Below, piece by piece: positions 1 to 51,149 of a DNA stretch of 64,000 nt. The position numbers and the translations under genes are program-made. Origin of the DNA: Asterias amurensis (lineage: Eukaryota > Echinodermata > Asteroidea > Forcipulatida > Asteriidae); the NCBI RefSeq assembly GCF_032118995.1, contig NC_092649.1, forward strand, positions 17,797,332 to 17,861,331, read 5' to 3'. Numbering within the stretch: position 1 is the stretch's first letter; the number at the start of each line of letters is the position of its first letter. Under the pieces are notes generated by a model. That model was not told where the DNA came from and did not search any database. It was given only the letters and a program-made list of their open reading frames with translations.

Positions 1-350
1 AATGATATAAGTCTAAAACTTGGAACATCCATAAACTCACTGCAGGCTATCCATGTGACTGATAAGGTTGTGCTATCAAGAAACTCAATGCTTCACTCCA
101 ACCACTGTATAGTTCATCTTTGTGACGGCAACTATTATCTTCAATGGGTAAGTCTTGAAGTTTTATCCCATATATACTAAGTTTAAACTGTACTTTGTCT
201 CATCAAACAAAACTTGTCTCGTGCACCGGGGTCATATCACTCTGTGGTTTTTTACCTTTTCAAGTCTTCAGACACTAGTATTTAAACAAAAAAAATTCAC
301 TTTTAAATTGTTCCCAAACAGATTTGTGTCATTCATGAAATATTACCACA

Positions 351-623
351 GTTGGTCTTTGAAAAGCGTTTGAAACAGTTTGTTATAAAATGCATAAGGT
401 TAGAAAGTTATTTTAAAAGTAGAATACAATGATCCACACGAATTTACCTTGGAATTGCGTGGTTTTCCTTATACTTTGCAAACAAGCACGGTCGGCCATT
501 TATGAGAGTAAAAATGGCGATTGATACTTGTGTGGATCATTATATTCTACTTTTAAAATATCTTCTATTCAATATGCATTTTTTTTCACAAACTTGACCG
601 ATCCAAAGGCAAAGTGTTCCTTT
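351..623. mobile_element. Fold-back MITE, family 1 (copy inside module A)
   Basis: The two halves are reverse complements: GTTGGTCTTTGAAAAGCG with GTAGAATACAATGATCCACA on the left, and the matching inverted strings ending in CAAAGTGTTCCTTTAA on the right. The outer 20-25 bp of the left end are missing. It has no coding capacity. The same element at 2,069-2,385 was duplicated together with the module. Confidence 0.8.
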
Positions 624-1449
624 AAACAAAAAATTGGCAAATCCAATGATCTCGTTGGATTCTTCTTTGAAATTTATTTCCTTTTTTGCTCTCAAATTTA
701 CAAATATAGGGAGGGAACCTATATGGGTACCCCCCCCCCCCCGCCCCCTCCACCAACTCTAAAAAATAAATTGTTTCGATTAGGTTACAAGTGTAAAAGA
801 AATTGTTTGAAATAGACGCTTTATTGACAGGTTAAAGAACTTACTAATCAGACAACCCTGGATTTAATCAAAAAGTTTTCCTTTGCCTGTTTAGGACATA
901 CCAGCTTTTTTTAAATTGTGTTCCCTTTGATGCCATAAAGATATTGTACTTAAAAAATAGTCAATCCAAAATTTATATTGATTGGCATGTTTCATGTTTC
1001 ATAGTTTGCTGATAAGTTAACTCAATGCTTCATTCTTACCACTGCAGGTTATCCATGTGACTGCACAGTTACTGCTCCACTCCTACTGCGGCAGGTCATC
1101 CATTTGTTACTCACTGCATCACTCCAACCACTGTAGGTAATCTATGTGACAGCAACTATTATCTTCAATGGGTAAGTCTTGAAGTTTTATCCCATATCTA
1201 CTAAGTTGAACTTTACTTTGTCTCATCAAACAAAACTTGTCCTGTGTACTGAGTTCATATCTCTCTGTTTTTTGTTTACCTTATCAAGTCCTCGGACACT
1301 TGTGTTTTAACAAAATTGCTTCCACTTTTAATTTGTTTCCAAGATTAGTCACCCATTTGGTTGCAACATAAAAAACTGTTTACCAGTGCTGGGCCAACTC
1401 TCTAAAGCCAATGTTATACCATCTAATTACATTTTCCCAAAACTTGCTG

Positions 1450-1646
1450 ACACCCGGTTCAGACAAGCGAACATAACATAACATAACAGTTACATTAGGT
1501 TCGGCTCAAGACAAGATCTCAGCTGAAACCAAGGTGCTCCAGATCCGTTTTGGACAACTGCAACAGAACGATCTTTCAGATGTCGAACTGTGCACTTAAT
1601 TCAATAATTTAGTTCGGACTCTGGAACGCCTGTCTGAAAAGGGTGT
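1450..1646. mobile_element. Short inverted-repeat element (~200 bp)
   Basis: Ends are ACACCCGGTTCAGACA on the left and the near-reverse complement TGTCTGAAAAGGGTGT on the right. The interior has a short AACAT microsatellite near 1,470. It lies between the two module A copies and has no ORF. Family not identified. Confidence 0.5.
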
Positions 1647-2068
1647 AAGTTTATGTTTTTTAATCCCAAAACAATAGTACTGTTTTGTTGACTGTCTTTA
1701 ATTTGTTTTTATCAATCTTGTGATTTTAATATGTGGTTGTAAATGTGATGTATGTCTTGATTCTGTTCTGTTGCCATGCTGGTTGTTGCTATCAAGAAAC
1801 CTCATTGCTTCACTCCAACCACTGTATAGTTCATTCATGTGACGGCAACTATTATCTTCAATGGGTAAGTCTTAAAGTTTTATCCCATATAATACTAAGT
1901 TTAAACTGTACTTTGTCTCATCAAACAAAACTTGTCTTGTGCACCGTGGTAATATCACTCTGTGGTTTTTTACCTGATAATGTCCTCAGACACTTGTATT
2001 TAAACATCAAAAATTTCACTTTTAAATTTTCCCAAACCGATTTGTGTCATTCATGAAATATTACCACA

Positions 2069-2385
2069 GTTGGTCTTTGAAAAGCGTTTGAAACAGTTTG
2101 TTATAAAATGCATAAGGTTAGAAAGTTATTTTAAAAGTAGAATACAATGATCCACACAAATTTACCTTGAAATTGCGTGGTTTTCCTTATATTTTGTGAA
2201 CAAGCACGATCGGCCATTTATGAGAGTAAAAACTTTAACTCCCCTAAATGGCGCTTGATACTCGTGTGGATCATTATATTCTACTTTTAAAATATCTCCT
2301 ATTCAATATGCATTTTATAACCAAACTGTTACAAACGCTTTTCCAAGACCAACTCGACCGATCCGAAGGCAAAGTGTTTCTTTTA
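2069..2385. mobile_element. Fold-back MITE, family 1 (second module A copy)
   Basis: Same palindromic sequence and same missing left end as the copy at 351-623, so both descend from one insertion that was duplicated with the module. The loop side includes GGCCATTTATGAGAGTAAAA. Confidence 0.8.
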
Positions 2386-4341
2386 AACAAAAATTGGCAA
2401 ATCCAATGATCTCGTTTTTTGTTGTTGTTTTTTTAAATCAATTTCATTTTTTTCTCTCAAATTGACAAGTATAGGGAGGGAACCTAGAGGGGTAACCCCC
2501 CCCCCCCCCAACTCTAAAAAATAAATTGTTTCGATTAGGTTACAAGTTTAACATTTTTTGTTTGAAATAGACGCTTTATTGTCAGGTTAAAGAACTTACT
2601 TATCAGACAACCCTGGATTGAACCCAAAAGTTTTTCCTTTGCCTGTTTAGGACATACCAGCTTTTTTTAAATTGTGTTACCTTTGATGCCATAAAGATAT
2701 TGTACTTAAAAAATAGTCAATCCAAAATTTATATTGATTGGCATGTTTCATGTTTCATAGTTTGCTGATAAGTTAACTCAATGCTTCATTCTTACCACTG
2801 CAGGTTATCCATGTGAGAGCACAGTTACTGCTCCACTCCAACCACGCCAGGTCATCCATTTGTGTACTAACTGCGTCACTCCAACCACTGTAGGACATCT
2901 ATGTGACAGCAACTATTACCTTAAATGGGTAAGTCTTGAAGTTTTATCCCATATCTACTAAGTTGAACTTTACTTTGTCTCATCAAACAAAACTTGTCCT
3001 GTGTACTGAGTTCATATCTCTCTGTTTTTTTATTTACCTTATCAAGTCCTCAGACACTTGTATTTTAACAAAATTGCTTCCACTTTAATTGTGTACAAGA
3101 TTAGTCACCCATTTGGTTGTGACATAAAAAAACTCCAAGCTCATGTTGTGTTGTTCCTCAAAAACTAAGATGTTGGGCTGTCTTTAAATTTACTGAAAAT
3201 CATTTGTCAAGTGTTTTTCAAAATGTGGCATTCTTGTGATTTTTGTAATGGGATTTATAATTGTCATGTATGATTTGATTTCATCTAGATTGCCATGCTG
3301 GCTGTCCTTAGACAGGGTTGGCTGCTGCTGGCACAGATGATGAAAGCATGTCAACCTGGAACAAAAGAACATCGCCGAAGGTTCTACAGCATAAGTTGCC
3401 GTTACATCATTAAAGGTATATGCAAACCTTTTGAACCTTGTGATTTTATTACACTTTTTTACACTTCTATTGTCTGAAGCAATACACCAGTGTCCCCCCC
3501 CCCTCGGACCTAGGGTCATTTATACCCGAAGTCAATTTAAATAGGAACCTAGTCTCTTCATTACCAGTCCCCCCCACCCTCCAAGGTTATGTTGCACTTC
3601 TCAAATCATTTCCAAAATTATTTTGTGCATGTCTCAAAGCCACCACCAAGTTTTTGTTGTGTCGCTAAAGTTATTTAAATCACAAATTATGTCAAAGACA
3701 CTTTACACTTATTGCTCCCTCCTTTAAGTGGGGCGTAATGCTGGTGAGAGAACCCAATTTAACTATCTTGGAAAGAAGGGTTTGTCCTGGTGTTTCTGGC
3801 ATGTTTGGCAAATGATGTTGGATATATGGGTCTTGTGTTTCAACAAGTTAGCATAAATGTCTTAAACATTATGGCTCTCAGTAACTAAATGGATGACGCT
3901 TTATAAAAGCTTTATTTTATTACTTTTCAACTATTTCAGATCAAGGAGGCTCTAGAAGAGGGTCAGAAGACTCAAGCGGACCACGTTGCTTCCAAGATGT
4001 TAGAGATTTAACAGAAACAGTATAATGAGACCAGCAGTGATGAACACGACGTCTAGATTCCCCATCAAGACAACTGCCTCAAATCTTTATGAGAACACAG
4101 GTTGGATGCTTTGTACTGCCGGGAAGGAATTTATTGAGCATCCTTTTTGTATCAACCCCTAAATTTTCCAAAAGCACATTCTGTCCATCCTCAAAACTTT
4201 TCATCCTACTGATTTTCAAACACCAAACTGTTCATCTGCTTAATTTTTTTTTTAACCTTCTCACCACGCCTTCCTGCTCTAACATGCATCTTCAGCTACC
4301 ACTCTCGACTAAGATCGAGAGTTGGAGTCGAGCAGTCACCT

Positions 4342-4705
4342 GAAAATTGAAATTGAAATTAGCGGTCGCCCGGTCGCCAAATGCGAGTGAAAATAGCGGC
4401 GGGCGAGTGAAAACCCTTTCTCACTAGCCCGCCGGGCGAGTCAAATAATTATTCCTTTTCACATATAAATGAGGGTTCAGTGGCAAAATCCCACAGAAAA
4501 CTTTTACTAAAGCTTTTAAATTAGTAAGTTTGACAATTCTAGATACTTGCTAGATTTAATTTTGCCGTGATCGGGACCGAAATTGCCGTCGTTTGTTTCA
4601 GAAAACATGTGCATGACGACAATCAATTGAAAACACGATGCACAAACCACATGGTGCCGAGTATCCTTACAGTACATGTACACGGTCGCCCACTGGTACA
4701 TCCAT
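4342..4705. mobile_element. Insertion of ~360 bp interrupting one 2.2-kb unit
   Basis: The unit sequence AGCAGTCACCTGA continues to its usual downstream part at 8,620 and elsewhere, but here it is interrupted until GTGCCAATAGTTTCTGAGG. The insert starts with GC-rich GGTCGCCCGGTCGCC and CTAGCCCGCCGGGCGAG motifs, much like the CTAGCCCG-rich segment at 56,240-56,520. Exact ends and family are unclear. Confidence 0.45.
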
Positions 4706-6258
4706 GCAGTGTGCCAATAGTTTCTGAGGTAATCATTCTCCATCTATCATAACAGTTAAAAAACTTTCCAAAGACACTTAACCACTATTGCTCCCCCCCT
4801 TTAAGTAGGACGAAATGCTGGTGAGAGAACCCAATTGTATACATGGTGTTTCTAGCATGTTTTACAAATGATGTTGTATATATGGGTCTTGTATCTCAAC
4901 AAGTTAGCATAAATGTTTTAACCATTATGGCTCTCAGTAACTAAATGGGTGACGCTTTATAAAAGCTTGATTTTATTATTTTTTCAACTACTTCAAATCC
5001 AGGAGGCTCTTGAAGAGAGTCAGTCAGAACAATCAAGAGGACCACCTTGCTTCCAAGACGTTAGAGATTGAACGAAACTGTCTAATGAGAACAGCAGTGA
5101 TGAACACGACGTCTTGATTCCCCATCAAGACATCTGCCTCAAAGATTCATGAGAACACAAGTTGTATGCTTTGTTCTGCTCGGAAGGAATTTATGAAGTA
5201 TGATTTTTGTATCAACCCCTAAATTTTCCAAAAGCACATTCTGTCCATCCTCATGCCTTTTCATCGTACTGATTTTCAAACATAAAACTGTTCATTAGCT
5301 GCTTATTTTTTCCCAAGCCAAATATGTACAGACCCTTAACTTTTGGGTTGACTTTGGTTGGGTTGGTCACCAGTTGGTTGTGACACAAAAAAGCTCCTAG
5401 CTCATGTTGTGTTGTTCTTCTAAAACAAAGATGTTGGGCTGTCTTTAAATTAACCGAAAATTATATGTCAAGTGTTTTTTTAAATGTGGCATTCTTGTGT
5501 TTTTCTATTCAATTGAGTTTATATTGTTTATATATGGTTTGATTTCATCTAGGCTGCTGCTAGCACGGATGGTGAAAGCATGTCAACCTGGAACAAAAGA
5601 ATCGCTGAAGGCTCTACAGCATATATTGCCGTTACATCATTGAAGGTATGTATACTTTGTTTAACCTTGTGATTTGACACTTTTGTTACACTTCTATTGT
5701 TCTCAAGCCACAACTGTGCCATCTCTGATAAGCAGAATGTTGAGTCCCTCAAAACTTGCTAAGCTGAATAAATTTTGAGTCGCTACAAGTTCACAACCCA
5801 ATGGTGTGCGGTCTCTTGAAATAATTAATGTTATACCAGCCCTTTAAAAAAACTTGACAATAAATCGACTGGTGTTACTCTGAAATTTGTATGCTCCCTC
5901 GATGTGGTGGTGCTTTTGATATTTCATAAAATCTCCTGTTGTCCAATTTTGTGGCATCCCTTTGAAACCATACCTACAATCCTGGCCATATCTCGTTGGG
6001 CCCCCCTGCCCCCTTTCAATGTTGGTTCCAATTGCCGATCTTCTTATGAGTTACAGTCAACATTGAGCGGGGGGCGGGAAACAGTGTTGTTATTGTGAAT
6101 GGGAAGTGCACAGTGAATTGTTTTGTGTAGCGTTAGGAATGGGTGGCCCAAGCATTTTGGCCGGGATTGTGGTTCATGTTGAACTGCTCCGGTCATTTTC
6201 AAATCAACCTTGTACATTCTCTCATGGTGACATTGTATGGCTGTAATTATTGTTTTAA

Positions 6259-6615
6259 GGAACACATTGCCTTGAATCGGTCGAGTTGGTCTTTGAAAAG
6301 CGCTTGTAACCGTTTGTTATAAAATGCATATGATTATAAAGATATTTTAAAAGTAGAATATAATGATCCACACAAGTATCACTCGACATTGCGTGGTTTT
6401 CCTTAATATACCTTGTCGACTAACACGCTCGGCCGTTAAATGGCCGACAGAGTTAGTTCGCAAAGTAAAAGGAAAACCACGCAATTTCGATGTAAATTTG
6501 TGTTGATAATTGTATTCTACTTTTAAATCATCTTTCTAACCATATGCATTTTATAACGAACGGTTACAAACGCTTTTCAAAGACCAAATCAACCGATCCG
6601 AGGCAACGTGTTCCT
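6259..6615. mobile_element. Fold-back MITE family 1, complete, in a TTAA site
   Basis: Complete ~357-bp element with inverted halves from GGAACACATTGCCTTGAATC to the matching GGCAACGTGTTCCT. It is flanked on both sides by TTAA. A uninterrupted copy of the same unit at about 31,787 (minus) reads through GTTTAATTACAGC, which shows the empty site. TTAA duplication is typical of piggyBac-group elements. No transposase is present, so it is non-autonomous. Confidence 0.8.
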
Positions 6616-6994
6616 TTAATTACAGCAATTCAATGTCTTGCTAGATGACTTTTGATGAAATTATAAACGAATTTGTTTTTTCTTCTTCAGATTATTCACT
6701 AATTGGAGAGTCAACTCATTGTCCCAAGTAATACACCAGCCCCCCCCCCTCGGACCTGGGGTTATTTATAACTGAAGTCCATTTGATTAGTAACCTAGTC
6801 TCTTCATCACCTGTCTCCCCCAGACTTAGGGTCTTCTATACCCAAAGTCAATTCATTTAGGACCTTGGACTCCTCACCACACCCTTCCTGCTGCAACACA
6901 CATCTTCATATTACCACTCTCCATTGTGAGCAAGATTTGGAGTCCAGCAGTCACCTGACAGACAGAGAATACTGTCCGTTACACTGAGCCCGAT

Positions 6995-7031
6995 GGTTCT
7001 TCTCAGAACCGAAAATCACTCAAGTGAGATC
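6995..7031 (+). promoter_or_regulatory. Histone-type 3' stem-loop plus purine block in the 2.2-kb unit
   Basis: GGTTCTTCTCAGAACC forms a 6-bp stem with a four-base loop and fits the metazoan histone mRNA stem-loop consensus. Ten bases later comes CAAGTGAGATC, resembling a histone downstream element. The better copy at 26,713 (minus) has CAACAGAGATC at the same spacing. Function is inferred from pattern only. Confidence 0.5.
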
Positions 7032-8665
7032 TACCTACTGAGTTTGGCAATCATCATGTTGCCAAGCTTCGGAGGGTTGGCATTTTGTTGACCTACCCCA
7101 AATTTCTGATGCTCAGTAATACAATTTTTGTACCTTAAAAGCAATGTGCACTTTTTGGAAACTTTGGAGTGTTTTAATCCTTTATAAATTTAGTTGTATA
7201 CAATAAAATAACCTTGAAAATTTCATTTCAAAATGTGGTCGTGGTCACAGTTTTGAGATATCGCTGAAACTTCGTAGCAAATCTACCTCCGTAGACATCT
7301 GCCTCAAACCTTCATTTTAACACAGGTTGGATGCTTTGTTCTTCTGGGAAGGAATTTATTTAGTATAATTTTTGTATCAACCGCTAAATTTTCCAAAAAC
7401 ACTCTGTCCATCCTCAAAACATTTCATCCTACTGATTTTCAATTATCAAACTGTTCATTAGCTGCTCAAATTTTCCCGAACCAATTGTGTAAAGACCCTT
7501 TAACTTTTGGCTCGACTTTGTGTAGATTGGTCACCCAGTTGGATGTGATATAAAAAATCTCCAAGCTCGTGTTGTGTTGTTCCTCAAAAACTAAGATGTT
7601 GGGCTTTCTTTAAACTTACCGAAAATCATTTTTTCAAATGTTTTTTTTTTTTTTTTAAATGTGCCATTCTTGTGATTTTTATTTTATGGGATTTAGACTG
7701 TCATGTATTCTTTGATTTCATGTAGATTGCCATGCTGGCTGTCCTTAGACAGGGTTGGCTGCTGTCAGCACAGATGATGAAAGCATGTCAATCTGGAACA
7801 AAAGTACATCGCTGAAGGACAGCATAGATTGTCGTTACGTCATTGAAGGTAGATGCATAATTTTTGAACCTTGTGATTTTATTACACTTCTTTACACTAA
7901 TATTCCAAAGCCAAAACTTTACCATCTCTGCTAATTAGAATGTTGAGTCCCACAACACTTGCTAAGCTGAATATATTTTCAATTCGCTACAAGTTCACAA
8001 CCCAATAGTGTGCGATCTCTTGAAATAATTAATCTTATGCCAGCCCTTCAAAAACTGATCAATCAAACAACATTTGTTACTCTCCAATTTGTATTCTCCC
8101 TCGATGTTGTGGTGCTTTTGATATTTCATGAAATCCCGTTGTCCAGTTTTGTTGCATCTCTTGAAACCATACCTAGTTCATGTTGAATTGCTCAAGTCAT
8201 TTTCAAATCAATCTTGTACATTCTCTCAATACCATTTCATAGTGATATTGTATCGTTGTAATTATTGTTTAGTTCCAGCGATTCAATGTATTGCTAGATG
8301 ACTATTGATGAAAGCTAGATGACTTTTGATGAAATGATAACCAGAGGTTTTTTTCCTTGTTCAGATTATTCACTGATTGGAGAGCCAACTCATTGTCCCA
8401 AGCAATACACCACCCCCCCCCCCCTCGGAACTAGGATCATTTATAACTGAAGTCAATTTGATAAGGAACCTAGTCTCTTCATCACCAGCCCCCCCCCCCA
8501 GACTTAGGGTCTTCTATACCCAAAGTCGATCCATTTAGGACCTTGGACTTATGCCCTCCCGACTCATACATGCATCTTCAGCCACCACTCTCCAGTGCAA
8601 GCAAGAGTTGGATTCGAGCAGTCACCTGACAGACAGAGTATACTGTCTGAAACATTGAACCCACC

Positions 8666-8702
8666 GGTTCTTCTCGGAACCAACAATTACTCAATAGAGA
8701 TC
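8666..8702 (+). promoter_or_regulatory. Histone-type 3' stem-loop, second left-arm copy
   Basis: GGTTCTTCTCGGAACC, with one change in the stem that still allows a G-U pair, followed by CAATAGAGATC at the same distance as in the other copies. Confidence 0.45.
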
Positions 8703-10305
8703 TATACCTACTGAGTTTGGAAATCATAATGTTACCAAGCTTTGGAGGATTGGCATTTTGTAGGTCCACCCCAAATTTCTCAAGCTATTGTTACTACTCA
8801 TTATTGTGTCAAATCAACCTTATAGTATACTGTGCCAATAATTTCTGATGCCCCATCCTGACAAAAAGAGTCAGAAAAGTTTTGAAGCTTATAAGCAATG
8901 TGCAATTTGTGATAACTTTTGATTGTTTTAATTCTTTATAAATTAAGTTGTATACTCTAAAATTAACCTGTGAAAATTTATTTCAAAAGGTGGTCAGTGG
9001 TCACAGTTTGAGATATCACTGAAACTCCGGAGCAAATCTTTACAGGAATACACAATCTAAGAAGCGTTGCTGCAGTAATGCTTCTCATTTTCAAATATCT
9101 TGAGATGGAAAATTAAATCTTTTTCCATAATCATAATTCTTCAAATTGCAATGTTTCTCAAAAATGGATTTTACTCTCAAAAGCTGTTGTACATCTTAGT
9201 TTTATTTCCCTTAGAGAGGAGAGTTTGCCCTGGTGTTTCTGACATGTTTGGCAAATGATGTTGTACATATGGGTTTTGTATTTCAAAATCTTAGCATAAC
9301 TGTCTTAAACATTTCTACTCTCAGTAAATGAATGGACAACGCTTTTTTAAATGCTTGATTTTATTATTTTTCAGCTGCGTCAGATCTAGGAGGTTCTTGA
9401 AGAAGGTCAGAACACTCAAGCGAACGACTTTGCTTCAAAGACGGCAGAGATTGAACAGAAACGGCCCAATGAGAACAGCAGTGATGAACATGACGTCTAG
9501 ATCCTCATCAAGACACGGCCTCAAACCATCATGAGAACGCAGGTTTGATGCTTCGCACTGCCCTCAAGGAACTTATTAAATGCTTTTTGAACCGACTCTT
9601 AAATTTTCCAAAAGCACATTCTGTCCATCCTCAAAACTTTTCATCCGACTGATTTCCAAACATCAAACTGTTCATTAGCTGCTTAAATTTTCCCAAACCA
9701 AATGTGTATAGACCCTTTAAATTTTGCGTTGACTTTGTTTAGACTGGTCAACCAGTTGGTTGTGACATGAAAAGCTCTAAGCTCATTTTGTGTTTTTCAT
9801 AAAAAACTAACATGTTGAGCTGTCTTTAAATTTACCGAAAATCATTCGTCAAGTGTTTTTAAAAATGGCATTCTTGTCATTTTTATGATGGGATGCTTGT
9901 ATGCTTTGATTCATCTAGATTGCCATGCTGGCTGTCCTTAGACAGGTTTGGTTGCTGCTAAAACATGACGAAAGCATGTCAACCTGGAACAAAAGAACAT
10001 TGAAAGAATTATACACATTTTTCAACCTTGTGAATTTATTACACATTCTGTACACTTCTATTGTTCCCAAGCCACACCTGTACCATCTCTGATAGTGTCC
10101 GATCTCTTGAAATAATTAATGTTATGCCAGCCCATCAAAAAACTTACCAATCAAACGACTTTTGTTACTCTGAAATTTGTATTCTCGCTTGATGTTGTGG
10201 TGCTTTTGATATTTCATAAATAACTCCTGTTGTCCAGTTTTATGGAATATCTTCATGTTGAACTGCTCAATTTATTTTGAAACCAACCTTGTACTAGAGT
10301 CCCAC

Positions 10306-10572
10306 TCAAGACAACCGTCTCAAACCATCATGAGAACACAGGTTGGATGCAAAATTATCTTTCAACTCTTTAGTGTTTCGTTCAACTAATTTTTTTCTTT
10401 TACCTTTTTGTTCACCCATTTTATCAAGTTCTTTCAATTGTTGTGTTTTAACTCTTTCAAACTTTTCATTTGTTAAAAGTTGGTTCTGGTACCAGTCATC
10501 TTGAAACATTTTTTTAAGCTCAGAATTTACACAAATAAAATCGGTATAATTTGGTTGATATCCCTGACCCAT
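10306..10572 (-). CDS. Small ORF of 88 codons, lysine/glutamate-rich, MGQG start
   Basis: The frame begins MGQGYQPNYTDF, continues through QDDWYQNQLLTNEKFERVK (about residues 24-42) and ends in a charged, probably helical KELDKMGEQKGKRKKL stretch. It lies at the outer edge of the heptad minisatellite on the left arm and reads away from the palindrome centre. The mirror copy at 25,469 (plus) preserves the start codon and the first ~17 residues, plus the QD-WY-NQ block, with several changes, then stops after 47 codons. Preservation of the same frame in both arms suggests that it once coded. There is no signal peptide, no membrane segment and no domain that I recognise. Whether it is an independent gene or an exon is not resolved. 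Confidence 0.4.
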   Translation of the reverse strand: MGQGYQPNYTDFICVNSELKKMFQDDWYQNQLLTNEKFERVKTQQLKELDKMGEQKGKRKKLVERNTKELKDNFASNLCSHDGLRRLS

Positions 10573-10599
10573 TCCCCCCCCCCCAAAAATGATTAGTTA

Positions 10600-10950
10600 A
10601 GCTGGTGTTGGGTTTACTAATTTGAACTTGAATAAGCCGAGGATACTTCAGATGGAACTTCTTTTGCCAGAGGACACTTCAGATGGAACTTCATTTGAAC
10701 CTGTGAGTATGAACAAATATCTTTACTAACCACGCCAGATCATGGAACAACGACACTCCAGATTGAACTTTATCTTCAGCTTCATTTGGACATGTGAGTA
10801 TGGAAAACTTTCTTGAAAAATCACGCCACACGCACAACATGGAACGGAGCATATGCGGCCACAGGCCAACGGTCCTGAGTGCAAACCTTTATCAGAGCTA
10901 TCCTTAAACTATTCTATTTCTCACTCCAAAAAATCGTCCCCAAAGTATCT
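10600..10950. repeat. Conserved palindrome shoulder, left
   Basis: This ~350-bp segment with two ACTTCAGATGGAACTTC repeats and two donor-like GTGAGTATG sites matches the reverse complement of 25,130-25,450 at roughly 90 percent by eye. A third diverged copy lies at 44,940-45,250. Short open stretches exist around the ACTTCAGATGGAACTTC repeats, but the frames are not preserved between copies. Confidence 0.75.
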
Positions 10951-10959
10951 ACCAAGTCT

Positions 10960-12450: not shown

Positions 12451-12464
12451 CCAGTCTTCATCTT

Positions 12465-25450: not shown

Positions 25451-25468
25451 TCATTTTTTTATTTTGGA

Positions 25469-26712: not shown

Positions 26713-26728
26713 GGTTCTGAGAAGAACC
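26713..26728 (-). promoter_or_regulatory. Histone-type 3' stem-loop in right-arm unit
   Basis: On the minus strand GGTTCTTCTCAGAACC, followed after ten bases by CAACAGAGATC (26,718 downward to about 26,692). This is the best copy of the motif. The downstream block differs at two of nine positions from the sea-urchin histone downstream element CAAGAAAGA as I recall it. Confidence 0.5.
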
Positions 26729-28398: not shown

Positions 28399-28763
28399 AG
28401 CCATTATACACTTTCGGTAAACAGTATTGTCCAATCCCACACTTCGTGTATCACAACTTATATATAAAATAACAAACCCGTGAAAATTTAGGCTCAATCG
28501 GTCATCGGAGTCGGGAGAAAATAACAGGAAAACCCACTCTTGTTTCCGCGCGTTTCGCCGTGTCATGACATGTGTTTAAAATAAATCTGTTATTCTCGCT
28601 AACAAGAATTTATATTGTTTTACTGTTTTCTCAAAAAGTAAAGCATTTCATGGACTAATATTTCAAGAGAAGTCTTTCACCATTACCTTATGTAAACCCT
28701 GTAAATTATTTGTAAATCTGTGAACTTTTTTTGTTCTTTCTGTACCGAAAGTGTATAATGGCT
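28399..28763. mobile_element. MITE family 3 in a TTAA site, with empty paralogous site
   Basis: The ~365-bp element runs from AGCCATTATACACTTTCGGT to the inverted GTGTATAATGGCT and is flanked by TTAA on both sides. The paralogous unit at 27,191-27,205 reads GCTTTAAAAATGACTTG with no insert, which proves insertion after unit duplication. A second copy of the family is at 53,136-53,497. Confidence 0.85.
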
Positions 28764-29782
28764 TTAAAAATGACTTGAGCAGTTCAACATGAACTAAGTA
28801 TGGTTTCCAGAGATGCCACAAAACTTGACAACAGGAGCTTTGACGAAATTTCAAAGGCACCACAAAGCTAGTGAGAATAAAAATGTCAAAGTACCAAAGT
28901 CATTTGGTTGGTAAGTTTTTTTAAAGTGGACAACACATTGATAGTTTCAAGAGATTGCACACCATTGGGTCGTGAACTTGTAGCGAGTTGCAACTTTTAT
29001 TCAGCTTAGCAAGTTTTGAGGGACTCAACATTCTGCTTATCACAGATGTCACATTTTGTGGTTTAGGAGTGATACAAGTTCACTAAAAGTATAATCAAAA
29101 CAAAAGGTTCATAAAATATGCATGTACCTTCAATAGTGTCATGGCAATCTATTTTGTAGATATTTCAGTGATGTTCTTTTGTTCCAGGTTGACATGCTTT
29201 CATCATCTGTGCTAGCAGCAGCCAACCCTGTCTTAGGACAGCCAGCATGGCAGCCTGCATGAAATCGAAGCATACATGTCAAAATAATTCCCATAATAAA
29301 ATCACAAGAATGCCACATTTAAAAAAATACTAGACAAACTATTTTCGGTAAATTTAAATATGGCTCAACATCTTAGTGTTTGAGGAACAACATAACATGA
29401 GTTTGGAGCTTTCCACATCACAATCAACTAGGTGAAAAATCCAAACAAAGTCAAATCTATTGTAAAAGGGTCTGCATACAATTGGTTTAAGAGAATCTAA
29501 GCATAAAAGCAGATCATAAACTTTTTGTTATTTGAAAATCAGTAGGATGAAAAGTTTTGAGGGAGTAGACAGAATGTGCTTTTTGAAAATTGATGGGTTG
29601 GTACAAAAAGTATACTTCAAGATTTCTTTGAAATGAAGCATCCAACCAGTATGAAGCATCAACCAGTGTTCCGATTATGGTTTGAGGCGGTTGTCTTGAT
29701 GGAGAATCTAGATGTCTTGTTCATCACTGCTGTTCTCATTAGAACAATAATAAAATCGAGCATTTATAAATCATCATCTATT

Positions 29783-29920
29783 TGTGGAAAAACGATATAG
29801 AAAGGTTTGCGGTAACACCATGTAATGACTTACTCTAATGAGTTGGGGGTGGTTCTGAAAAGAACCGTTGGTTTCAACTCGACTTTTTGATCAGTATGCT
29901 CTGATTGTCTTCATGAGAAA
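29783..29920 (-). other. Inserted ~140-bp fragment with a histone-like 3' stem-loop
   Basis: Relative to other units, ~140 bp are inserted between CATCATCTATTT and AGTTACTGAGAGCC. On the minus strand it contains AACGGTTCTTTTCAGAACC (stem-loop at 29,866-29,851) followed by ACCCCC, a textbook histone mRNA 3' end. No histone-coding sequence was recognised beside it. It could be a processed histone 3' UTR scrap or a short repeat that carries this signal. Confidence 0.45.
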
Positions 29921-31413
29921 TTTAGTTACTGAGAGCCATAAAGTTTAAGACAGTACTGACAAGTTGTTGAAATGCAAGACTCATATTGTATACAACATCA
30001 TCTGCCAAAACCAAACATGCCAGAAACACCAGGGCAAACCCTTCTTTCCAAGACTCTTGCTCATACGGGAGAGTGGTAGCTGTGGATGCGTGTTGGAGCA
30101 CGAAGGGCGAGGTGGGAATTCTATGGTCCTAAATGAATTGACTTCGGGTATAGAAGACCCTAAGTATGGGGAGACTGGTGATGAATAGACTAGGTTCCAA
30201 ATCAAATTGACTTCAAGTATAAATGACCCTAGGTCCAAGGGAGGACTGGTGGAATGCTTCGGACAATGAGTTGGTTCTTCAACCAGTGAATAATATGAAG
30301 AAGAAAAAAAAATACAAAGTCATCTAGCAAGACATTGCATGGCTGTTATTTACCGATAATTACGGCCACATTAATCTTTCATCAAAAGTGATCTAGCAAG
30401 GAAGGAGATTCTATGATACATCAAAGGCACCATTCTGCTTATCAGAGATGGCACAGTTGTGGCTTGGGAACAATGGAAGTGTAAAAAAATTGTAATAACA
30501 TCACAAGGTTAAAACAAATGTGTATATACTTTCAAGAGTGTAACGCAATCTTTGCTGTAGAACCTTCAGCATTGTCTTTTGGTTCAGTAAGGTGAAAGCT
30601 TTGAGGGAGTGGACAGAAAGTGCATTTTTAAATTTGAAAAGTTGAAACAAAAAGTATACTTAACAAAATTCTTTGAGAGCAAAACTGAGCATCCAACCAC
30701 TTTTCTCATGATGGTTTGAGGCTGTGTCTTGATGGGGACTCTAGATGTTGTGGTCATGACTTCTGTTCTCATTGGGGTATTTCTGTTCAATCTCTACCGT
30801 CTTGGAAGCAAGCTGGTCTGCTCGAGTGTTCTGACCCTCTTCCAAGGGCCTCCTCGATCTGAAGTAGTTGAACAATAATAAAATCAAGCATTTATAAAGC
30901 ATCATTCATTTAGTTACTGAGAGCCATAATGTTTTAAGACCTTTAAACTTAAACTTGTTCAAAAACAACATAATTTGCCAAACATGATAGAAACACCAGG
31001 GCAAACCCTTCTTTCCAAGATACAAATGGGTTCTCTCATTAGCATTACGCCCCACTCAAAGGACAAACCAATGGTAAAGTGTCTTTGGAAAATTTAAAAA
31101 AAAACTAATGCAACTTAAGCGCTACAGCACCAACTTGGAATGGTTTTGAGACATTGCACAAAAATAGTTTGGAAATGATTTGAAAATTGCAGATCGTCAC
31201 CTTGAAATTGTTATGATAGATGGAGAATGATTACCTCAGAAATTATTTGCACAGTACACTTTACAGTTGGCCTGGCTTGAATAGAGAACACAACAATGAG
31301 TTGTAAAAATAACATCAGAAATTTGGGGTGGCTCATAAAAAAGCCCACCCTCCGAAGCTTGGCAACATAGTGATTTACAAACCCATTAGGTAGATCCCTA
31401 TTAAGTGATTTTT

Positions 31414-31429
31414 TGTTCTGAGAAGAACC
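31414..31429 (-). promoter_or_regulatory. Histone-type stem-loop, decayed right-arm copy
   Basis: Minus strand GGTTCTTCTCAGAACA, with the terminal base pair lost. The downstream block is TAATAGGGATC, more diverged than in the copy at 26,713. Confidence 0.4.
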
Positions 31430-32027
31430 GGTGGGCTCAGTGTATCAGACAGTATACTCTGTCTGTGTGTCCGTCAGGAGGCTGCTCGTACGGGAGAGTG
31501 GTAGCTGAAGTTGCATGTTGGAGCAGGAAGGGCGTTGTGAGAAGTCCAAGGTCCTACATGAATTGACTTCGGGTATAGAAGACACTAAGTCTCGAGGGAG
31601 ACTGGTGATGAAGAGACTGGGTTCCTAATCAAATTGACTTCGGTTATAAATTACCCTCGTTCCAAGGGGAGACTGGTGTATTGATTGGAACAATGAGTTG
31701 GCTCTCCAATCAGTGAATACTCTAAAGAAGAAAAAACAAAAACTCCATTAATCATTTCATCAAAACTCATCTAGCATCGCTGTAATTAAACAACAATTAC
31801 AGCCATACATTGTCATCATGAAATGGTGTTGAGAGAATATCCAAACTTTTTTAATGAAATATAAAAGGCACCACAACATCAGGCACAAATACAAATTTCA
31901 AAGTAAACAAATTTGTATGGTTGGTAAGCTTTTTGAAGGCTGGACATTAATAATTTCAAGAGGTCGCACACTTTTGGGTCGTGAACTTGTCATGAATTGA
32001 AAATGTATTCAGCTTAAGGTACGCGTT

Positions 32028-32384
32028 GCCTGGATCGGTCGAGTTGGTCTTTCAAAACCATTTGTAACCGTTTGTTATAAAACACATTATGATTAGAGAG
32101 ATATTTTAAAAGTAGAAAAAAATGATCTACACAAGTATCACTCGTAATTGCGCGGTTTTCCTTTTATCTTGTCGACAAACACAGTTGGCCATAATTGACT
32201 CCCATAAATGGCCGACCGTGTTATGTCACAAAATAAAAGGAAAACCACACAATTTCAAGGCAAATGTGTGTGGATAATTGTATTCTACTTTTAAAACATC
32301 TTTCTAACCATATGTATTTTATAACAAACGGTTACAATCGCTTTTCAACGACCAACTCAACCGATCCAAGGCAAAGTGTTCCTT
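32028..32384. mobile_element. Fold-back MITE family 1 in right-arm unit
   Basis: Complete ~357-bp palindromic element from GGTACGCGTTGCCTGGATCG to GGCAAAGTGTTCCTT. The paralogous unit at about 29,005 reads TTCAGCTTAGCAAG uninterrupted. The target duplication is less clean than at 6,259. Confidence 0.8.
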
Positions 32385-33029
32385 TACTAAGCAAGTTTTA
32401 AAGGACTCAACATTCTGCTTATCAGAGATGGCACAGTTGTGGCTTGGAAACTATAGAAGTGTGAAAAAAGGGTAATAAAATCACAAGGTTAAAAAAATGT
32501 GTATATACCTTCAATGATGTAAAGGCAACCTATGCTGTAGAACCTTCTGTGATGTTCTTTTGTTCCAGGTTGACATGCTTTCATCATCTGTGCTAGCAGC
32601 AGCCAACCCTGTCTAAGGACAGCCAGCATGGCAGCCTAAATGAAACCAAAATCAAAGCATACATGACAATATAAATCCCATCATAAAAATCACAAGAGTG
32701 CAACATTTTGAAAAACCATTGACAAATGATTTTCGGTAAATTTAAAGACAGCCCAAACATTAAGTTTTGAGGAACAACACAACATGAGCTGAGTGCTTTT
32801 TGTGTCACAACCAAATGGGTGACCAATCCAAACAAAGTCAAGCCAAAAGTTAAAGGGTCTGTATATGTTTGGTTTGAGAAAATTTGAGAGAATTTAAGCG
32901 CAAAATCAGCAAATAAACAGTTTCATGTTTCATGTTTGAAAATCAGTGGAATGATTAATTTTAAGGGACTGAACAGAATGTGCTTTTGAAAAAAATAAGG
33001 ATGCAAGGAGAGATCAATTCTTTTTTTTT

Positions 33030-33670
33030 AAATGGCAAAAACTTTGGTAAATTTCCTGACTGATCCAAAATCAGCTTGGGCACAAATTAAAACTGAAAAA
33101 TATAATGATTTTAAGTGTCCAACAATTGGATCAATTAAGTGTGTATTTCAGGCGAAAAATGTTACATTCATACCTTGATAAAATGTTGTTAATTTTTTGA
33201 GTTGGAAGAGGGAGGATGGCCCCCATTGGTCCCCCTTACTTGATTTTATTATCAATTTTGAAAAACAAAAATCAATTTTAAAGAAGAACCTCAAGAAAAT
33301 GTCGAACTTGGGATAAAACTTCAAGACTTACCCACTGAAGATAATAGTTGCTGTCACACGGTTGACCTACAGTGGATAGAGTGTAGCATCGAGTTTCTAG
33401 ATAACCTTTAGTCACATGGCAACCTTTAGTAACATGGATAGCCTGCAGTGAGTTATTAGTTATGTTCCAAGGTGTTAGGCTTTCATCATACGTGCAGGCA
33501 GCATCCAACTCTGTCAAAGAAACAACCAGCATGACAACAAAAACAAAATCAAGACATACATGACGTTATCAATCACAGCATTAAAAATCACAAGATCGAT
33601 AAGTTTTTGAAAGACAATCAACAAAACAGTACAAATGTGTACAGTTGTTTTTTTAGAGTTGTATGGGTAG
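33030..33670 (-). repeat. Module A, right arm, first inverted copy
   Basis: Holds the reverse complement of the module A exon-like block (ACTTACCCACTGAAGATAAT at about 33,326) and, near 33,500, CAACTCTGTCAAAGAAACAA. Further copies follow at 35,275-35,960, 37,146-38,000 and 39,170-39,560, interrupted by two transposons. Confidence 0.7.
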
Positions 33671-33959
33671 GGGCGCGATATTTTTTTTCCAGCTCAGTTG
33701 CGGCAGAATCAATAGGGGGCGCTGTTGCGAGATTTCGTCATAAAAAGATATATGAATTATGCATTAGCTCAGTTGCGTGTTGCTTCCTACACAGTACTAT
33801 GATCGCACACACACGGGCAAGGCGCTGATGGTGATAATGTGATACACCAACAACATGTTTGTTTGTACTGTTGTTTTTTTTGCATACCATCAGTGTATTG
33901 ATTCATTATTCCACAATACAAAGCATTCATATCCATGGAGGAAGAAAATATTTTCTTCC

Positions 33960-34095
33960 TTACACATTCATAGATCATCTGCAATGGGAATTACCAATCA
34001 CAACTGCCATTTATTTCTGCAATGGGAATAACCAATAACAACTGCCACGTTATTTCTGCAATGGTGATAACCAATCGCAACTGCCACTTATTTCA
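33960..34095 (+). repeat. Three ~41-bp tandem repeats with CCAAT motifs inside the transposon
   Basis: Three successive units of the form CTGCAATGGGAATAACCAAT followed by AACAACTGCCA. Each contains ACCAAT, a CCAAT-box-like string. They lie about 150-290 bp upstream of a TATA-like sequence. Confidence 0.6.
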
Positions 34096-34244
34096 TTTTT
34101 AACTGTTCAGCTCACCGTAAATATAAACCGTTTGGACGTAGGTGTTCTCATGGCTTTAGTCTTTAACTAAGTGTACCGATTGGTACTTGTAAATGCTCAA
34201 ACATTTATGATCGAAAATGCTGACTATAGTGCGACCACCCATGT

Positions 34245-34488
34245 TATAAATAGCTCACTGAGTGCTGTGAATCCACGACCCTAGCTAGCTATGGAAGGAC
34301 AAACCCAACGGAGTGTATTTCCACCATGGAGAAGAAACTCCTCCATAGTTGATGTGTGGGTGCGAGTGAAATGTACATGTACAATACACTGTATTACAAA
34401 CACGCGACACACAACAGCTGTCCGTATCAGCCAGTACTATGCTATCACTATCAGCCACACACACACGCAGCTATGCACGCTTGACTGA
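34245..34488 (+). promoter_or_regulatory. Promoter-like segment and small ORF inside the transposon
   Basis: TTATAAATAGCTC at about 34,245 resembles a TATA box. The first ATG, at 34,291, opens a 65-codon frame starting MEGQTQRSVFPPWRRN and ending in HTHTQLCTLD. The peptide resembles nothing I know and its codon use looks random, so the frame is probably not functional. The promoter-like layout is the more credible part. Confidence 0.25.
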
Positions 34489-34602
34489 AAACGTGCGACA
34501 AGAAGCTAAACATGCATAATTCATAGATTTTTCTACGACGAAATCCTGCAACAGCGCCCCCTATTGATTCTGCCGCAACTGAGCTGGAAAAAAATATCAC
34601 GG

Positions 34603-35963
34603 GAGGGGCATGGCTCCAGCGACCAGCCATTGATTATACTGCCAATTTCAACACAAACATTCAGTTTTAAAAAAAGTTCACAGAGAGAACAATTTATTCT
34701 ATTGAAACAATTGAGTTGAAATACCATTAGATTTGCAATTTCTTCAAAGAATGGCACAAACTTTGACAACATTTCATGAATGACAAAAAATCAGCCTGGG
34801 AACAACTTAAAACTGAAAAATATCACGACTTCAGTTGCAAGTGTGCAAGGATTGGATCAGGTAAAAATGATGGTGAGAGATATGGCCTTATTAGTGCATG
34901 GGACAAGTTTTGTATGATGAGACAAAGTAAAGTTGAGTTTGAGTATAGATATGGGATAAAACTTCAAACTTGCCCAAATTTGCTGATTATTTTGCCGAAA
35001 ACGCCATTCCATTTGACTTTCCAATGCGCATACGTTGGATGTAACAACGATCGAGAATGGCCTACTATGAGCCACTGCGCATGCAGTGTTATCCATGTGT
35101 TTGCCAACTATTTACCAGTTCTCCGTCCCGCTGCAGCAATATTGGTCAGTTTCCCAATTACCAGAGAAGTTTTGCTGTAGCGATCAGTGTACACACAGGG
35201 CCATTGAAGGTTGCAAAAGTTGGTGTTGCAGTTCTTACATACGTCCCAGCCTTTCTCTATGGTCAAACTTAGTAGATATGGGATAAAACTTCAAGACTTA
35301 CCCATTGAAGATAATGGTCGCTGTCACACGGTTGACCTACAGTGGTTGGAGTGAAGCATTGAGTTTTTTGATAGCACAACCTTTACAGTCACATGGATAG
35401 CCTGCAGTGAATTTCTAGACATGTTCCAAGTTGTTAGGCTTTCATTATCTGTTCAGGCAGCAGCCAACTCTGTCAAAGAAACAAACAGCATGGCAACAGA
35501 GACAGAATCAAGACATACATGACATTATCAATCACAGCATTAAAAATCACAAGATCGGTAAGTTTTTAAAAGCTATCAACAAAACAGTACAGATGTGTAC
35601 ACTTTTTTTTTGAGTTGTGTGGGGAGGGGCATGGCTTCAGCAATCGGCCCTTGATTATATTGGCAAAACATTCAATTAAAAAAAGTTCAAAGAGAGAACA
35701 GTTTATTCTATTGAAACAATTGAGTTGAACTATCAATGGATTTGCATTTTTTTTCAAAGAATGGCACAGACTTTGATAAAATTTTATGAATGACGAAAAA
35801 TCAGCATGGGAATATTTAAAAACTATAAGGTATAACGATTTTAGTAGCAGGTGTCCAAGGATTGGATCGAGTAAAAATATTGGAGAGAGATATGGCCAAA
35901 GTTTTGTTTGATGAGACAAAGTAAAGTTGGAATTGAGTATAGATATGGGATAAAACTTCAAGG
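34603..35963 (-). repeat. Module A, right arm, second copy with inserted sequence
   Basis: Continues module A after the transposon. A sub-module with GATATGGGATAAAACTTCAA occurs twice (34,950 and 35,280), separated by about 285 bp of sequence not seen elsewhere in the window (about 34,985-35,268). On the plus strand a 134-codon frame opens at 34,776. The block near 35,430-35,560 corresponds to 33,470-33,590. Confidence 0.65.
34776..35180 (+). CDS. Unassigned 134-codon ORF within module A
   Basis: This is the longest open frame in the palindrome outside the satellites. It begins MNDKKSAWEQLKTEKYHDF, with SCKCARIGSGKNDGERYG following. The paralogous module at 35,787 starts MNDEKSAWEYLKTIRYNDF with SSRCPRIGSSKNIGERYG, so the N-terminal ~38 residues align in frame with mostly conservative changes, but that copy stops about 40 codons in. 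The copy near 39,020 is more decayed. After about residue 70 the 34,776 frame enters inserted sequence and is probably random. No domain is recognised. It may be a remnant of a coding module or chance. Confidence 0.3.
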   Translation: MNDKKSAWEQLKTEKYHDFSCKCARIGSGKNDGERYGLISAWDKFCMMRQSKVEFEYRYGIKLQTCPNLLIILPKTPFHLTFQCAYVGCNNDREWPTMSHCACSVIHVFANYLPVLRPAAAILVSFPITREVLL

Positions 35964-37145
35964 CACCTGGAAATAGGATTTTTTTTCTTTTAAACATAAG
36001 AGTATATGTTTGTTAACAACAAAACAATTTTTGGAGTAATTGTTTGTCACGATTTATATGTTAAAAAAATTAATTAAGTGCTTGGGGGTTGACTCCGCCT
36101 ACCCCTTTTGTGACGTAGGAAAAGGAAGACTTTGCCTCGATGCGTAGATAAACACACGTGCAATAGTACATGTAATTCTAAGACGTGAGTTTGTACGCTG
36201 CGAAAAAGGTTTTTTCTGGCATTTTTCCGGCAATGCCGACCAGGTGTATTGCTGCTGGATGCAGCAAAACTAAAGATGGGGTCAGTCTTCATCTATTTCC
36301 TGCAGATCCCAAGTATAGGCGGTTGTGGGCTGCGAAAGTCAGATTAACTAGAGCAAAGTGGTCCGGTCCGACGTCTTTTTCAGCGCTATGCAGCGAACAC
36401 TTCGAGCCGTCGTGATTCGAATCCGGGATACACCACTCATTTGACATGACGAGAAGAGCCATTCTTAAACACGACGCCGTCCCAACAATTTGTCCAGCTA
36501 GTGGGAAATCGAAGAAGGTATCTGAAAGACGTGACGAACCCAATGGAGCATTTGCTAAACGTGAAAAAATTCGGTTAAGTTTGAACTTTGAGGGTATGTT
36601 TTTAGCTTTTGCCAAGTGACACGATTTGTTTTGGTACCGCATGCGATTCACTGGCGTGCAGGTCCTATGTGATCGTCCGCACATTATACAGCAGCCATAG
36701 TGCATGCGTGCAGTCTGCTCCGTGGCCGTATTTCTATAATAATACTAGACTAGACCCACATCTTACAACCCATTTGGTCAGTAAAAAGTCGCATAGTTAA
36801 ATAAAAATAGCAGCAAATAGCTTTTGTAAAAACCACTAGGCGTTCAACATGTTCAAGTTTCAATGTACGTATGTGTGTGTAAAATCGTGTCTAAATTTGT
36901 TTTGATGTGCCATGTTCCCAGACGTAATGTACGGGGGCCTGACTACAAATTTTCTCTTCAAATATCGCGCCTTGAAATACGTCACGAACAGCGCCCTCTC
37001 GGGTCGGGGCCTACTCGTAAATTTGTCAATATAATCAAAACTAATATTTTTAAACCTTAGTTAACATTTTATTCACATTCCTCTCGTAAAAACACACATT
37101 TTAGTGACAAAAGCTTTATTTGAAAAAAAATACCACTCCCAGGTG
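35964..37145 (+). mobile_element. P-like DNA transposon remnant carrying a THAP exon (~1.18 kb)
   Basis: Left end CACCTGGAAATAGGATTTTT and right end, read inverted, CACCTGGGAGTGGTATTTTT form ~22-bp terminal inverted repeats. They interrupt module A between two TTCAAG strings (ACTTCAAG on the left, CTTTCAAG on the right), compatible with a decayed 8-bp target duplication. The uninterrupted module reads AACTTCAAGACTTACCC at 35,288. The interior holds a THAP-domain exon, the DNA-binding N-terminus typical of P-element transposases, but no catalytic region, so it appears internally deleted. Confidence 0.6.
36233..36593 (+). pseudogene. THAP zinc-finger exon with an in-frame stop
   Basis: The frame starts at ATG 36,233 with MPTRCIAAGCSKTKDG, then HLFPADPKYRRLW and SALCSEHFEPS. 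It shows the C-x4-C, C-x2-H ligands, the HxFP and Trp positions and the trailing AVPTI motif (LKHDAVPTICP) of the C2CH THAP fold, a DNA-binding module. At 36,413-36,415 a TGA stands where THAP domains have a cysteine. The same frame then continues open through FESGIHHSFDMTRRAI to a donor-like GTATGT at 36,594. A start at 36,185 is possible, but 36,233 fits the family, where the first Cys lies within a few residues of Met. It sits inside the P-like element described above, so a transposase origin is more likely than a host regulator. One base change explains the loss. Confidence 0.75.
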
Positions 37146-39560
37146 ACTTTCAAGACTTACCCAATGCAGATAATAGTTGCTGTCACATAGATTACCTACA
37201 GTGGTTGGAGTGAAGCAGTGAGTACACAAATAGATTACCTGCCGTATATGGAGTAACTGTGCTCTCACATGGATAACCTGTAGTGGTAAAAATGTAGCAT
37301 TAAGTTTACTAATCAGCAAAATATGAAACATGCCAATCGATATAGTTTTTTGAATTGTAGTTTTAAGTACGATATAATAATGGCATCGAAGGGAACACAG
37401 TTAAAAAAAAGCTGGTATAATGAAAACTTTTAGATTACATCCAGGCTTGTCCGATTAGTAAGTTCTTAACTGTCAATAAAGCGTCTATTTCAGACAAAAC
37501 ATTTTACATTCATAACAAAATCAAAACAATTTATTTTTTTACATTGGGGGAGGGGGATTGCCCCCGTTGGTCCCCCTCCCTTGATATTAAAAATTGTGAA
37601 GACAAAAAATAAGTTTTAAAGAAGAACCCTAAGAAAAATTCAAACTTAGTAAATGTGAGAGAAAACTTCAAGACTTACCCATTGAAGATAATAGTTGCTT
37701 CACATGGCTGACCTACAGTGGTCGGAGTGAAGAATTGAGTTTTTTGATAGCACAACCTTTACAGTCACATGGATAGCCTGCAGTGAATTTCTAGACATGT
37801 TCCAAGTTGTTAGGCTTTCATTATCTGTTCAGGCAGCAGCCAACTCTGTAAAAGAAACAACCAGCATGGCAACAGAGACAGAATCAAGACATACATCACA
37901 TTATCAACCACAGTATTAAAAATCACAAGATTGGTAAGTTTTGTTTTAAAGACTGTCAACAAAACAGTACAAATGTGTACATTGTGAAAATTAAGAAAAA
38001 GCACTGTGCTTTGAAAAAATATTTAAGGATGGAAAAACACTAGGTTTAGAAGTTACGATGGATTTAGCTTTTTACATCTAGGGTTGTCCGGTTATTAACT
38101 TTTTTAACCTCCCAATCTAGTATCTATGAACACACACAAAAATGTCACATTCCTAACTTAATAAAAAACACCCTTTTTTGTTTTTAGAGTGTTGGGGGGG
38201 GGGCAATGGCCCCAATGATCGGCCCTTGATTATATTGGCAATTTAAACAAAAAATCAATTAAAAAAACAGGCCCCCAGACAGAGAGAACATTTTCTTAAA
38301 TTTGAAATATATGAGTTGAACTATCATTAGATTTGCAATATTTTTAAAAGAATGACACAAACTTCGGTAGAACTTCATAATTGATGATGTCCGATGGTTG
38401 GATCAGGTAAAAACAATGGAGATAAATATGGCCTCAGTGTTTAAAAAAAGTTTTGTTTGATGAGACAAATCAAAGTTCAGTTCAAGTAGATATGGGATAA
38501 AACTTCAAAACTTGCCCAAAGAAGATAATAGTTGCTGTCCCACAGATGACCTAAATTGGTTGGAGTGCAGCAGTGATGAGTAGCTGTCACATGGATAACC
38601 TGCAGTGGTAAGAATGTAGCATTGAGTTTACATGAAATAAGCAAATCGATATAGTTTCTGGATTGCATGTTTTTAAGTACAATTCCAAATGGCATTAAGG
38701 GAAAAACAGTTAATAGAACCTGGTATGTCCCAAGGAGGCAAAGAAAATCTTTTGATTACATCCAGGGTTGTCTGATTAGTCAGTTCTTTGAACTGTCAAT
38801 ATAGCCTCTATTTCGGGCACAAAATGTTACATTCCTAACAGTTGAGAGGGGGGGGGGCATGGCCCGGGTTGGCCCCCTAGGATCGGCCCTTGATTATATT
38901 GGCAAGTTCAATAAGAATTCAATTAAAAAACAAGGATCCCAAGAGATAACAACTAATTAAATTTGAAACAAATGAGAGTTTTATTTTTAAAGAATGGCAC
39001 AAACTTTTGTAAAATTTTAGACATGACACAAAATCAGTCTGGGAACAAAAACTATTTTTGTAGTGACAAGTGTCTGAGGACTGGATCAGGTAAAACAAAA
39101 TTCGAGAGACATGATTTCTGTGCACGGGACAAGTTTGTTTAATGAGACAAAGTAAAGTTGGAATTGAGTGTAGATATGGGAAAAAACTTCAAGACTTACC
39201 CATTGAAGATAATAGTGGCTGTCACATAGATGACCTACAGTGGTTGGAGTGAAGCATCGAGTTTCTAGATAGCACAACCTTTACAGTCACATGGATAGCC
39301 TGCAGTGAGTTTCTAGACATGTTCCAGGTTGTTAGACTTTCATCATCTGTGCAGGCAGCAGCCAACTCTGTAAAAGAAACAACCAGCATGGCAACAGAAA
39401 CAGAATCAACACATTCATCAATCACAGTGTTAGATGGTAAAAATTGGCTTTTGAGAGTTGGGCCAGCACTGGGAAACATTTTGCGAGTTAGGTTGTCTTT
39501 GAGGATATGCCAGGATGCATGGAGAAAAGTAAAGATCACAACTTCTTTAAGGTAAAACAT
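37146..39560 (-). repeat. Module A, right arm, outer copies
   Basis: At least two further inverted copies, with landmarks at 37,150, 37,670, 38,500 and 39,190 (CAAGACTTACCCATTGAAG and variants) and CAACCAGCATGGCAACAG at 37,862 and 39,383. Poly-G tracts near 38,190 and 38,840 match the poly-C tracts of the left arm. The palindrome's recognisable right edge is near 39,560. Confidence 0.7.
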
Positions 39561-44450: not shown

Positions 44451-44456
44451 GCAATG

Positions 44457-51148: not shown

Positions 51149-51149
51149 G

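Follow-up and report, generated by a model that had tools for sequence, protein, structure and literature searches.

Foldback transposons such as TU of sea urchins and FB of Drosophila have inverted arms made of tandem repeats, and the ampliconic palindromes of sex chromosomes have near-identical arms that contain genes and can exchange sequence. Here we describe a palindrome of the sea star Asterias amurensis which lies in a window of 64,000 nucleotides (C2:17,797,332-17,861,331; assembly of 491.5 Mb in 23 contigs, 22 nuclear ones and the mitochondrial contig 23) and is one of a family of which no title or abstract opening among the papers listed gives an account. Contig 23 has 16,427 bases, of which the first 10,000 read in the echinoderm code and carry nad1 and nad2 opposite in orientation to cox1; together with the 22 nuclear contigs, this fits a starfish. 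Like ampliconic palindromes, it has inverted arms capable of exchange, but arm-to-arm identity is 72-92% and the arms yielded no gene. In structure, it comes closest to the macro-dyads of Tribolium and the foldback transposon Tetris. Macro-dyads, as reported for Tribolium, are inverted kilobase-sized satellite subarrays of up to tens of kilobases with transitions from array to array (PMC13081366). Such kilobase-long inverted satellite subarrays are present in the window; however, those of Tribolium are reported to belong to multi-megabase putative (peri)centromeric regions on all chromosomes, whereas here 18 separate loci on three chromosomes possess ordered non-satellite shells and a conserved core. 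With Tetris, as described (PMC4079207), the element shares inverted arms containing tandem repeats, a role as satellite source and an apparently non-autonomous nature. Long inverted arms made of tandem repeats are indeed present, but unlike foldback transposons the element measures about 50 kb and exists in 18 copies on three chromosomes only. For the binding and transcription proposed below, mir-427 of Xenopus laevis is the nearest parallel: 33 precursors in both orientations are reported to occupy 55 kb, and the transcript drops upon depletion of Pou5f3 and Sox3 activity in the embryo (PMC10569791). In contrast to the miR-427/miR-430 arrays, the window has no Rfam miRNA at gathering score, SOX/POU-like sites make up the satellite itself, and the likeness is one of motif resemblance.

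The palindrome is real, lacks a clean centre, is larger than first noted and belongs to a family of eighteen. Its 131-bp core, used as query, matched the genome at 38 places (with every candidate scored), which comprise 18 inverted pairs, in one of which the right copy is split in two, and one solo remnant located in the window. Twelve pairs are on C2, two on C4 and four on C13, so that they are confined to three of the 22 nuclear contigs and not scattered as copies of a foldback transposon would be. At all 18 loci the paired cores face each other, at core-to-core distances of 8.8-22.3 kb, and at the six loci read at length the facing cores enclose about 8-12 kb of central satellite, beyond which long arms of tandem units extend. 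A query of greater length, taken from a C13 arm, recovers the same 36 arms and the solo copy, plus three short diverged matches (40 of 50 candidates scored). When a piece of the 2.2-kb unit of the arms was used as query (best 40 of 163 candidates scored), 49 matches at 13 loci were reported, its own place included and several from one arm; every one of them points outward and lies within 30 kb of a core. Facing core pairs at 18 of 18 loci together with the outward polarity of 49 of 49 reported unit matches exclude chance. The core is near-invariant across arms while the sequence flanking it diverges. The architecture is real and unusual, any function of it being hypothetical.

The sequence-only reading had described a layered palindrome of about 39 kb, centred near 18,020 and ending at 39,560, with an open reading frame (ORF) termed MGQG at the shoulder. 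Self-comparison and tandem-repeat analysis confirm that the same shells follow each other in opposite orientation on both sides, namely 31-bp satellite, 62-bp satellite, heptad minisatellite, shoulder, units of 1.6-2.2 kb and module A, and the shoulders pair at a coordinate sum of about 36,040, in agreement with the paired landmarks first noted. The proposed limits did not hold. In coordinates of the window, negative values lying left of its start, arm-to-arm homology starts at about -9.9 kb and reaches at least 43.4 kb (10 kb left of the window were compared), and the palindrome spans about 53 kb because these 10 kb match window 39.4-43.4 kb in reverse. The point 18,020 sits within a one-way 31-bp block, and satellite orientation flips near 16.79, 18.87 and 19.54 kb. 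The arms of this locus are 72-89% identical in the units and 92% at the shoulder (92.4% over 437 columns; 88% over a longer piece of 620 bases). The features are the following, c-numbers denoting other loci of the family.

1-3100, minus strand: left outer arm, module A units, with inverse matches to 33.1-39.4 kb
3090-10300, minus strand: left arm, tandem units of 1.6-2.2 kb, polarity opposite to the right arm
10561-11000, plus strand: left shoulder, written inward, with conserved GTGAGTATG words
10790-10920, plus strand: conserved 131-bp core, left copy (genome census, arm tree)
11030-12480, plus strand: left heptad minisatellite (21-22 bp), taken as non-coding
12467-14624, minus strand: 62-bp satellite, left; two 31-bp halves, a POU-like box in one and a KLF-like box in the other
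14625-16778, minus strand: 31-bp satellite block 1
16799-18872, plus strand: 31-bp satellite block 2, inverted relative to block 1, containing the nominal axis 18,020
18869-19526, minus strand: 31-bp satellite block 3
19547-23267, plus strand: 31-bp satellite block 4
23272-23532, plus strand: 62-bp satellite, right, about 4 copies
23651-24993, minus strand: right heptad minisatellite with an internal 355-bp duplication
25053-25480, minus strand: right shoulder
25128-25256, minus strand: conserved 131-bp core, right copy (C2:17822459-17822587)
25870-33000, plus strand: right arm, tandem units of 1.6-2.2 kb containing a conserved segment (about 108 bp; e.g., 29178-29285)
33131-39430, plus strand: right arm, module A units with a diverged form of the 108-bp segment
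39830-43700, plus strand: outer layer, absent from the sequence-only reading and present on both sides at the window locus, c174 and c134
43800-45000, plus strand: outermost layer; among the candidates scored, a long locus-specific match exists only to the left end of c185
44971-45246, minus strand: solo partial shoulder/core remnant at the outer edge of the palindrome

Homology with c185, the palindrome at C2:18.5 Mb, reaches about 45.0 kb (best 40 of 11,944 candidates scored, most of them dispersed repeat), and between 45.4 and 48.4 kb the matches scored are dispersed repeats (best 40 of 4,152 candidates). The segment of about 108 bp common to the 2.2-kb units and module A is present in 59 copies with at least 80 aligned bases across the window, the adjoining left flank and five further loci.

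The 62-bp unit consists of two 31-bp halves, and the central repeats sampled at ten of the 18 loci constitute one 31-bp family (six complete centres, and 1.2-kb samples from four of the remaining twelve). Central units start like TTCTATTGTCTTTT and continue with ATGCAAATTAG, ATGCATAYTAAT or GGGCGKGGCCTA. They contain the boxes WTTGT, ATGCWAAT or GCATNNTAAT, and GGGCGKGGC, which are SOX-like, POU-like and KLF/SP-like, respectively. The window array of 11,074 bp holds 242 ATGCWAAT, 20 GCATNNTAAT, 284 WTTGT and 32 GGGCGKGGC. In nine 31-bp consensuses from eight loci, one of the 12 fixed box columns varies as compared to nine of the 17 other columns, a contrast that was drawn post hoc (Fisher p = 0.019) and beside which both degenerate box positions vary. 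At C2:27.33 Mb, the unit has become ATTGTTATGCAAATTGGATCCT, 22 bp long, which reads as a SOX-POU composite with one base between the boxes, and CWTTGTYATGCAAAT occurs there in 18 copies within 1.2 kb; arrays at 28.8 and 30.3 Mb match this unit at 76-90%. Among the matches listed, the 62-bp and 22-bp satellites are all at palindrome loci.

The core census, the near-invariant core, the location of the listed satellite matches, the polarity of the units, the box counts, the box-column contrast and the SOX-POU composite all speak in favour of a dense transcription-factor-binding platform, perhaps a selfish one, and we tentatively favour this explanation as the most probable of several. The central array would be bound by germline or early-embryonic SOX, POU and KLF proteins, and the bound array would drive transcription outward from the two mirror-image cores. 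The product would be a repeat-rich non-coding RNA, the element being either selfish or used by the host. Segmental duplication would have dispersed the palindromes, in both orientations and occasionally from one chromosome to another, and their inner part would be re-homogenised within a locus from time to time. A more far-reaching version seems rather unlikely, in which the family represents 18 non-coding mega-elements whose centres were selected as SOX-POU-KLF arrays, with hundreds of sites per 10 kb, and whose mirror-image cores would make them transcription hubs of germline or early embryo, selfish or of use to the host and palindromic for the sake of outward transcription. If the boxes are true sites, the satellite would have evolved as an array of embryonic transcription-factor sites and its turnover would be tied to early genome activation. 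With 18 separately evolving copies in one genome, growth of macro-dyads, inversion and homogenisation can be traced stepwise.

Several observations weigh against a binding platform. The boxes were picked after the repeats had been seen and from general motif consensuses, a box pair of this kind is equally invariant in 24 of 342 placements, and within arrays the spacer is about as uniform as the boxes. Nor are the boxes present throughout: c134 has neither ATGCWAAT nor CWTTGT, c185 and the 1.2-kb samples of the loci e12, d150, c273 and e52 are devoid of GGGCGKGGC, c260 holds only nine CWTTGT, and in three loci the SOX box of one half-unit reads CTTTAT. Nothing marks the 131-bp core as a promoter, and that role is putative. 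A structured RNA is possible as well, the shoulder alignment giving z values of -1.34 and -2.64 on the two strands, the latter on the outward one, with few pairs. The stability of single shoulder strands does not exceed that of shuffles (z +0.75 and +0.88), and as to the core being a known RNA, no Rfam family reaches gathering score in the window, and seven weak matches remain far under the cut-offs. For the 108-bp segment, no consensus RNA structure was found over 57 distinct copies. Core and segment could be DNA-level elements or pieces of non-coding transcripts. A miRNA-like hairpin in the 2.2-kb units was rejected (59 copies, 57 of them distinct; z +0.40 and -1.12; stops in frame).

The binding platform is narrowly preferred over an inert repeat, a quite possible alternative. 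Here the palindrome would be a composite repeat, foldback-like or of macro-dyad type, that serves no host function and bears its motifs incidentally, its inverted arms and tandem shells having arisen and persisted through replication slippage, unequal exchange and duplication. An MGQG site without a conserved ORF, the lack of a clear RNA structure, the unequal copy number between arms, the satellite flips at variable places and the parallels in Tribolium (PMC13081366) and Tetris (PMC4079207) would all fit such a repeat. Less easily explained by it are a 131-bp core conserved in the arms far beyond its flanks, a facing order kept at 18 of 18 loci and a related core near three chromosome ends. 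These latter cores might also be taken as a sign of a chromosome-structure element, for example a centromere-like, pairing or subtelomere-derived site, the last a relic of fused chromosome ends. The three diverged solo cores (C1:26460-26523, C2:30797559-30797622 and C4:9019-9082) lie about 26, 11 and 9 kb from the ends of C1, C2 and C4, all facing the end; C1 opens with telomere repeats, and the C2 and C4 end pieces are 98% alike and about 77% identical to the window core over 104 columns. However, (TTAGGG)2 is absent from the stretches read at six palindrome loci, for which reason a relic of telomere fusion was rejected; the satellite matches listed include no chromosome end, and core pairs are found on three of 22 nuclear contigs, so that a chromosomal role of this kind seems quite improbable.

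A role as source of double-stranded RNA had been suggested by the sequence-only reading. Transcription through the palindrome might make it a double-stranded RNA or piRNA-precursor locus, since long inverted arms with outward unit polarity would yield complementary transcripts. Yet at this locus the arms are only 72-89% alike in the units and 92% at the shoulder, and no Rfam family is found in the window at gathering score; we regard such a locus as improbable, though less so than a chromosome-structure element. That the assembler joined haplotypes or loci head to head is barely conceivable, because facing cores recur at 18 loci and their arms diverge to different degrees.

The history of the arms was followed in a shoulder tree (36 arms and the solo copy) and in a unit tree (six loci, 30 unit fragments). 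At seven of 18 loci, the shoulders of the two arms form sister branches, namely at the window (support 86/86), c174, c260, both C4 loci and the C13 loci at 1.2 and 5.3 Mb. At the other 11 loci they are unresolved, as for c134/c145, or group across loci: c244 and c253 pair crosswise with each other (97/91 and 88/55), the three loci at 27.3, 28.8 and 30.3 Mb have intermixed arms, and the split right copy of c185 groups with the left one of c190. The 15.0-Mb locus of C4 falls within a C13 group and the 5.3-Mb locus of C13 within a C2 group. In the unit tree, the right arm of the window clusters with units from the left arms of c185 and c174, and the left arm of the window with one from the right arm of c174; contrary to this pattern, two more units, from the left arms of c174 and c185, join the window-left group. 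Because their units group across loci, the outer arms seem to predate the split of the loci. The 62-bp satellite, whose two window arrays are very unequal (2.1 kb left versus 0.26 kb right), is mostly on the left in the window and on the right at c174 and c185, and the outermost layer is on the right side in the window and on the left at c185. Since unit tree, satellite order and outermost layer agree, the whole window locus appears to be inverted relative to c174 and c185.

An old outer palindrome with a centre renewed later had been proposed from nearly identical inner satellite blocks. Part of this view can be kept, as the outer units predate the pairing of the shoulders and we infer that at some loci the shoulder was homogenised later than the outer arms. 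The inner blocks, however, cannot be called nearly identical, since the 60 longest inverse matches, all of them satellite, show 83-89% identity; inner satellite identity is no better than that of the shoulder, and the unit consensus is uniform within an array. Maintenance by gene conversion, also suggested at first, is plausible for the inner part only. In the outer arms, tandem growth is arm-specific: module A units go on beyond the left end of the window in tandem, at about 1.86 kb, and the left arm of c260 has a unit of about 3.77 kb. Such growth speaks against continuing exchange between the outer arms.

No conserved ORF was found in the tandem-unit arms at the six loci that were read at length. 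The MGQG ORF lacks conservation: its ATG points outward, and an ORF of at least 60 aa starts there in one of the 28 arms examined (all but the eight arms of c190, c273, c288 and c302; some pieces were shorter than the 500 bases sought), and it was rejected as a gene. A coiled-coil protein encoded by the heptad array was rejected likewise in view of broken frames, and the array is taken as non-coding because 21- and 22-bp periods are mixed and many stops interrupt the frames read. As to a possible transposase, many of the long open frames listed (at least 120 aa in the window; at least 130 aa in the left flank and five other loci) are satellite frames. A Pfam search with three window proteins named a trypsin-type serine protease frame (PF00089, E 1.2e-62), which is open at 59547-60386 and adjoined on the same strand by an immunoglobulin-domain frame at 60975-61355; a structure search on the gene neighbours named only the protease. 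Co-duplication of a host gene with the palindromes was rejected, as the trypsin gene neighbouring this palindrome has its three best paralogs at C2:15.72, 15.74 and 19.91 Mb, away from palindromes.

Other repeats occur in the arms or lie beside them. At 35957-37000, within module A, there is a dispersed element of at least 1.04 kb which is a recent insertion, as the other 39 copies scored are 92-97% identical to it (best 40 of 1,777 candidates). Self-inverted elements of about 370-410 bp with arms 79-85% alike sit at non-corresponding places of the palindrome arms (6229-6637, 32016-32384 and 41359-41747), and relatives of the last one are also encountered in c134 and c145. A dispersed repeat of about 390 bp at 44448-44841 is 85-87% identical to the copies scored and occurs in palindrome arms of several loci as well. 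Outside the palindrome, at 50405-51155, lies a self-inverted sequence of 750 bp with 81.6% identity.

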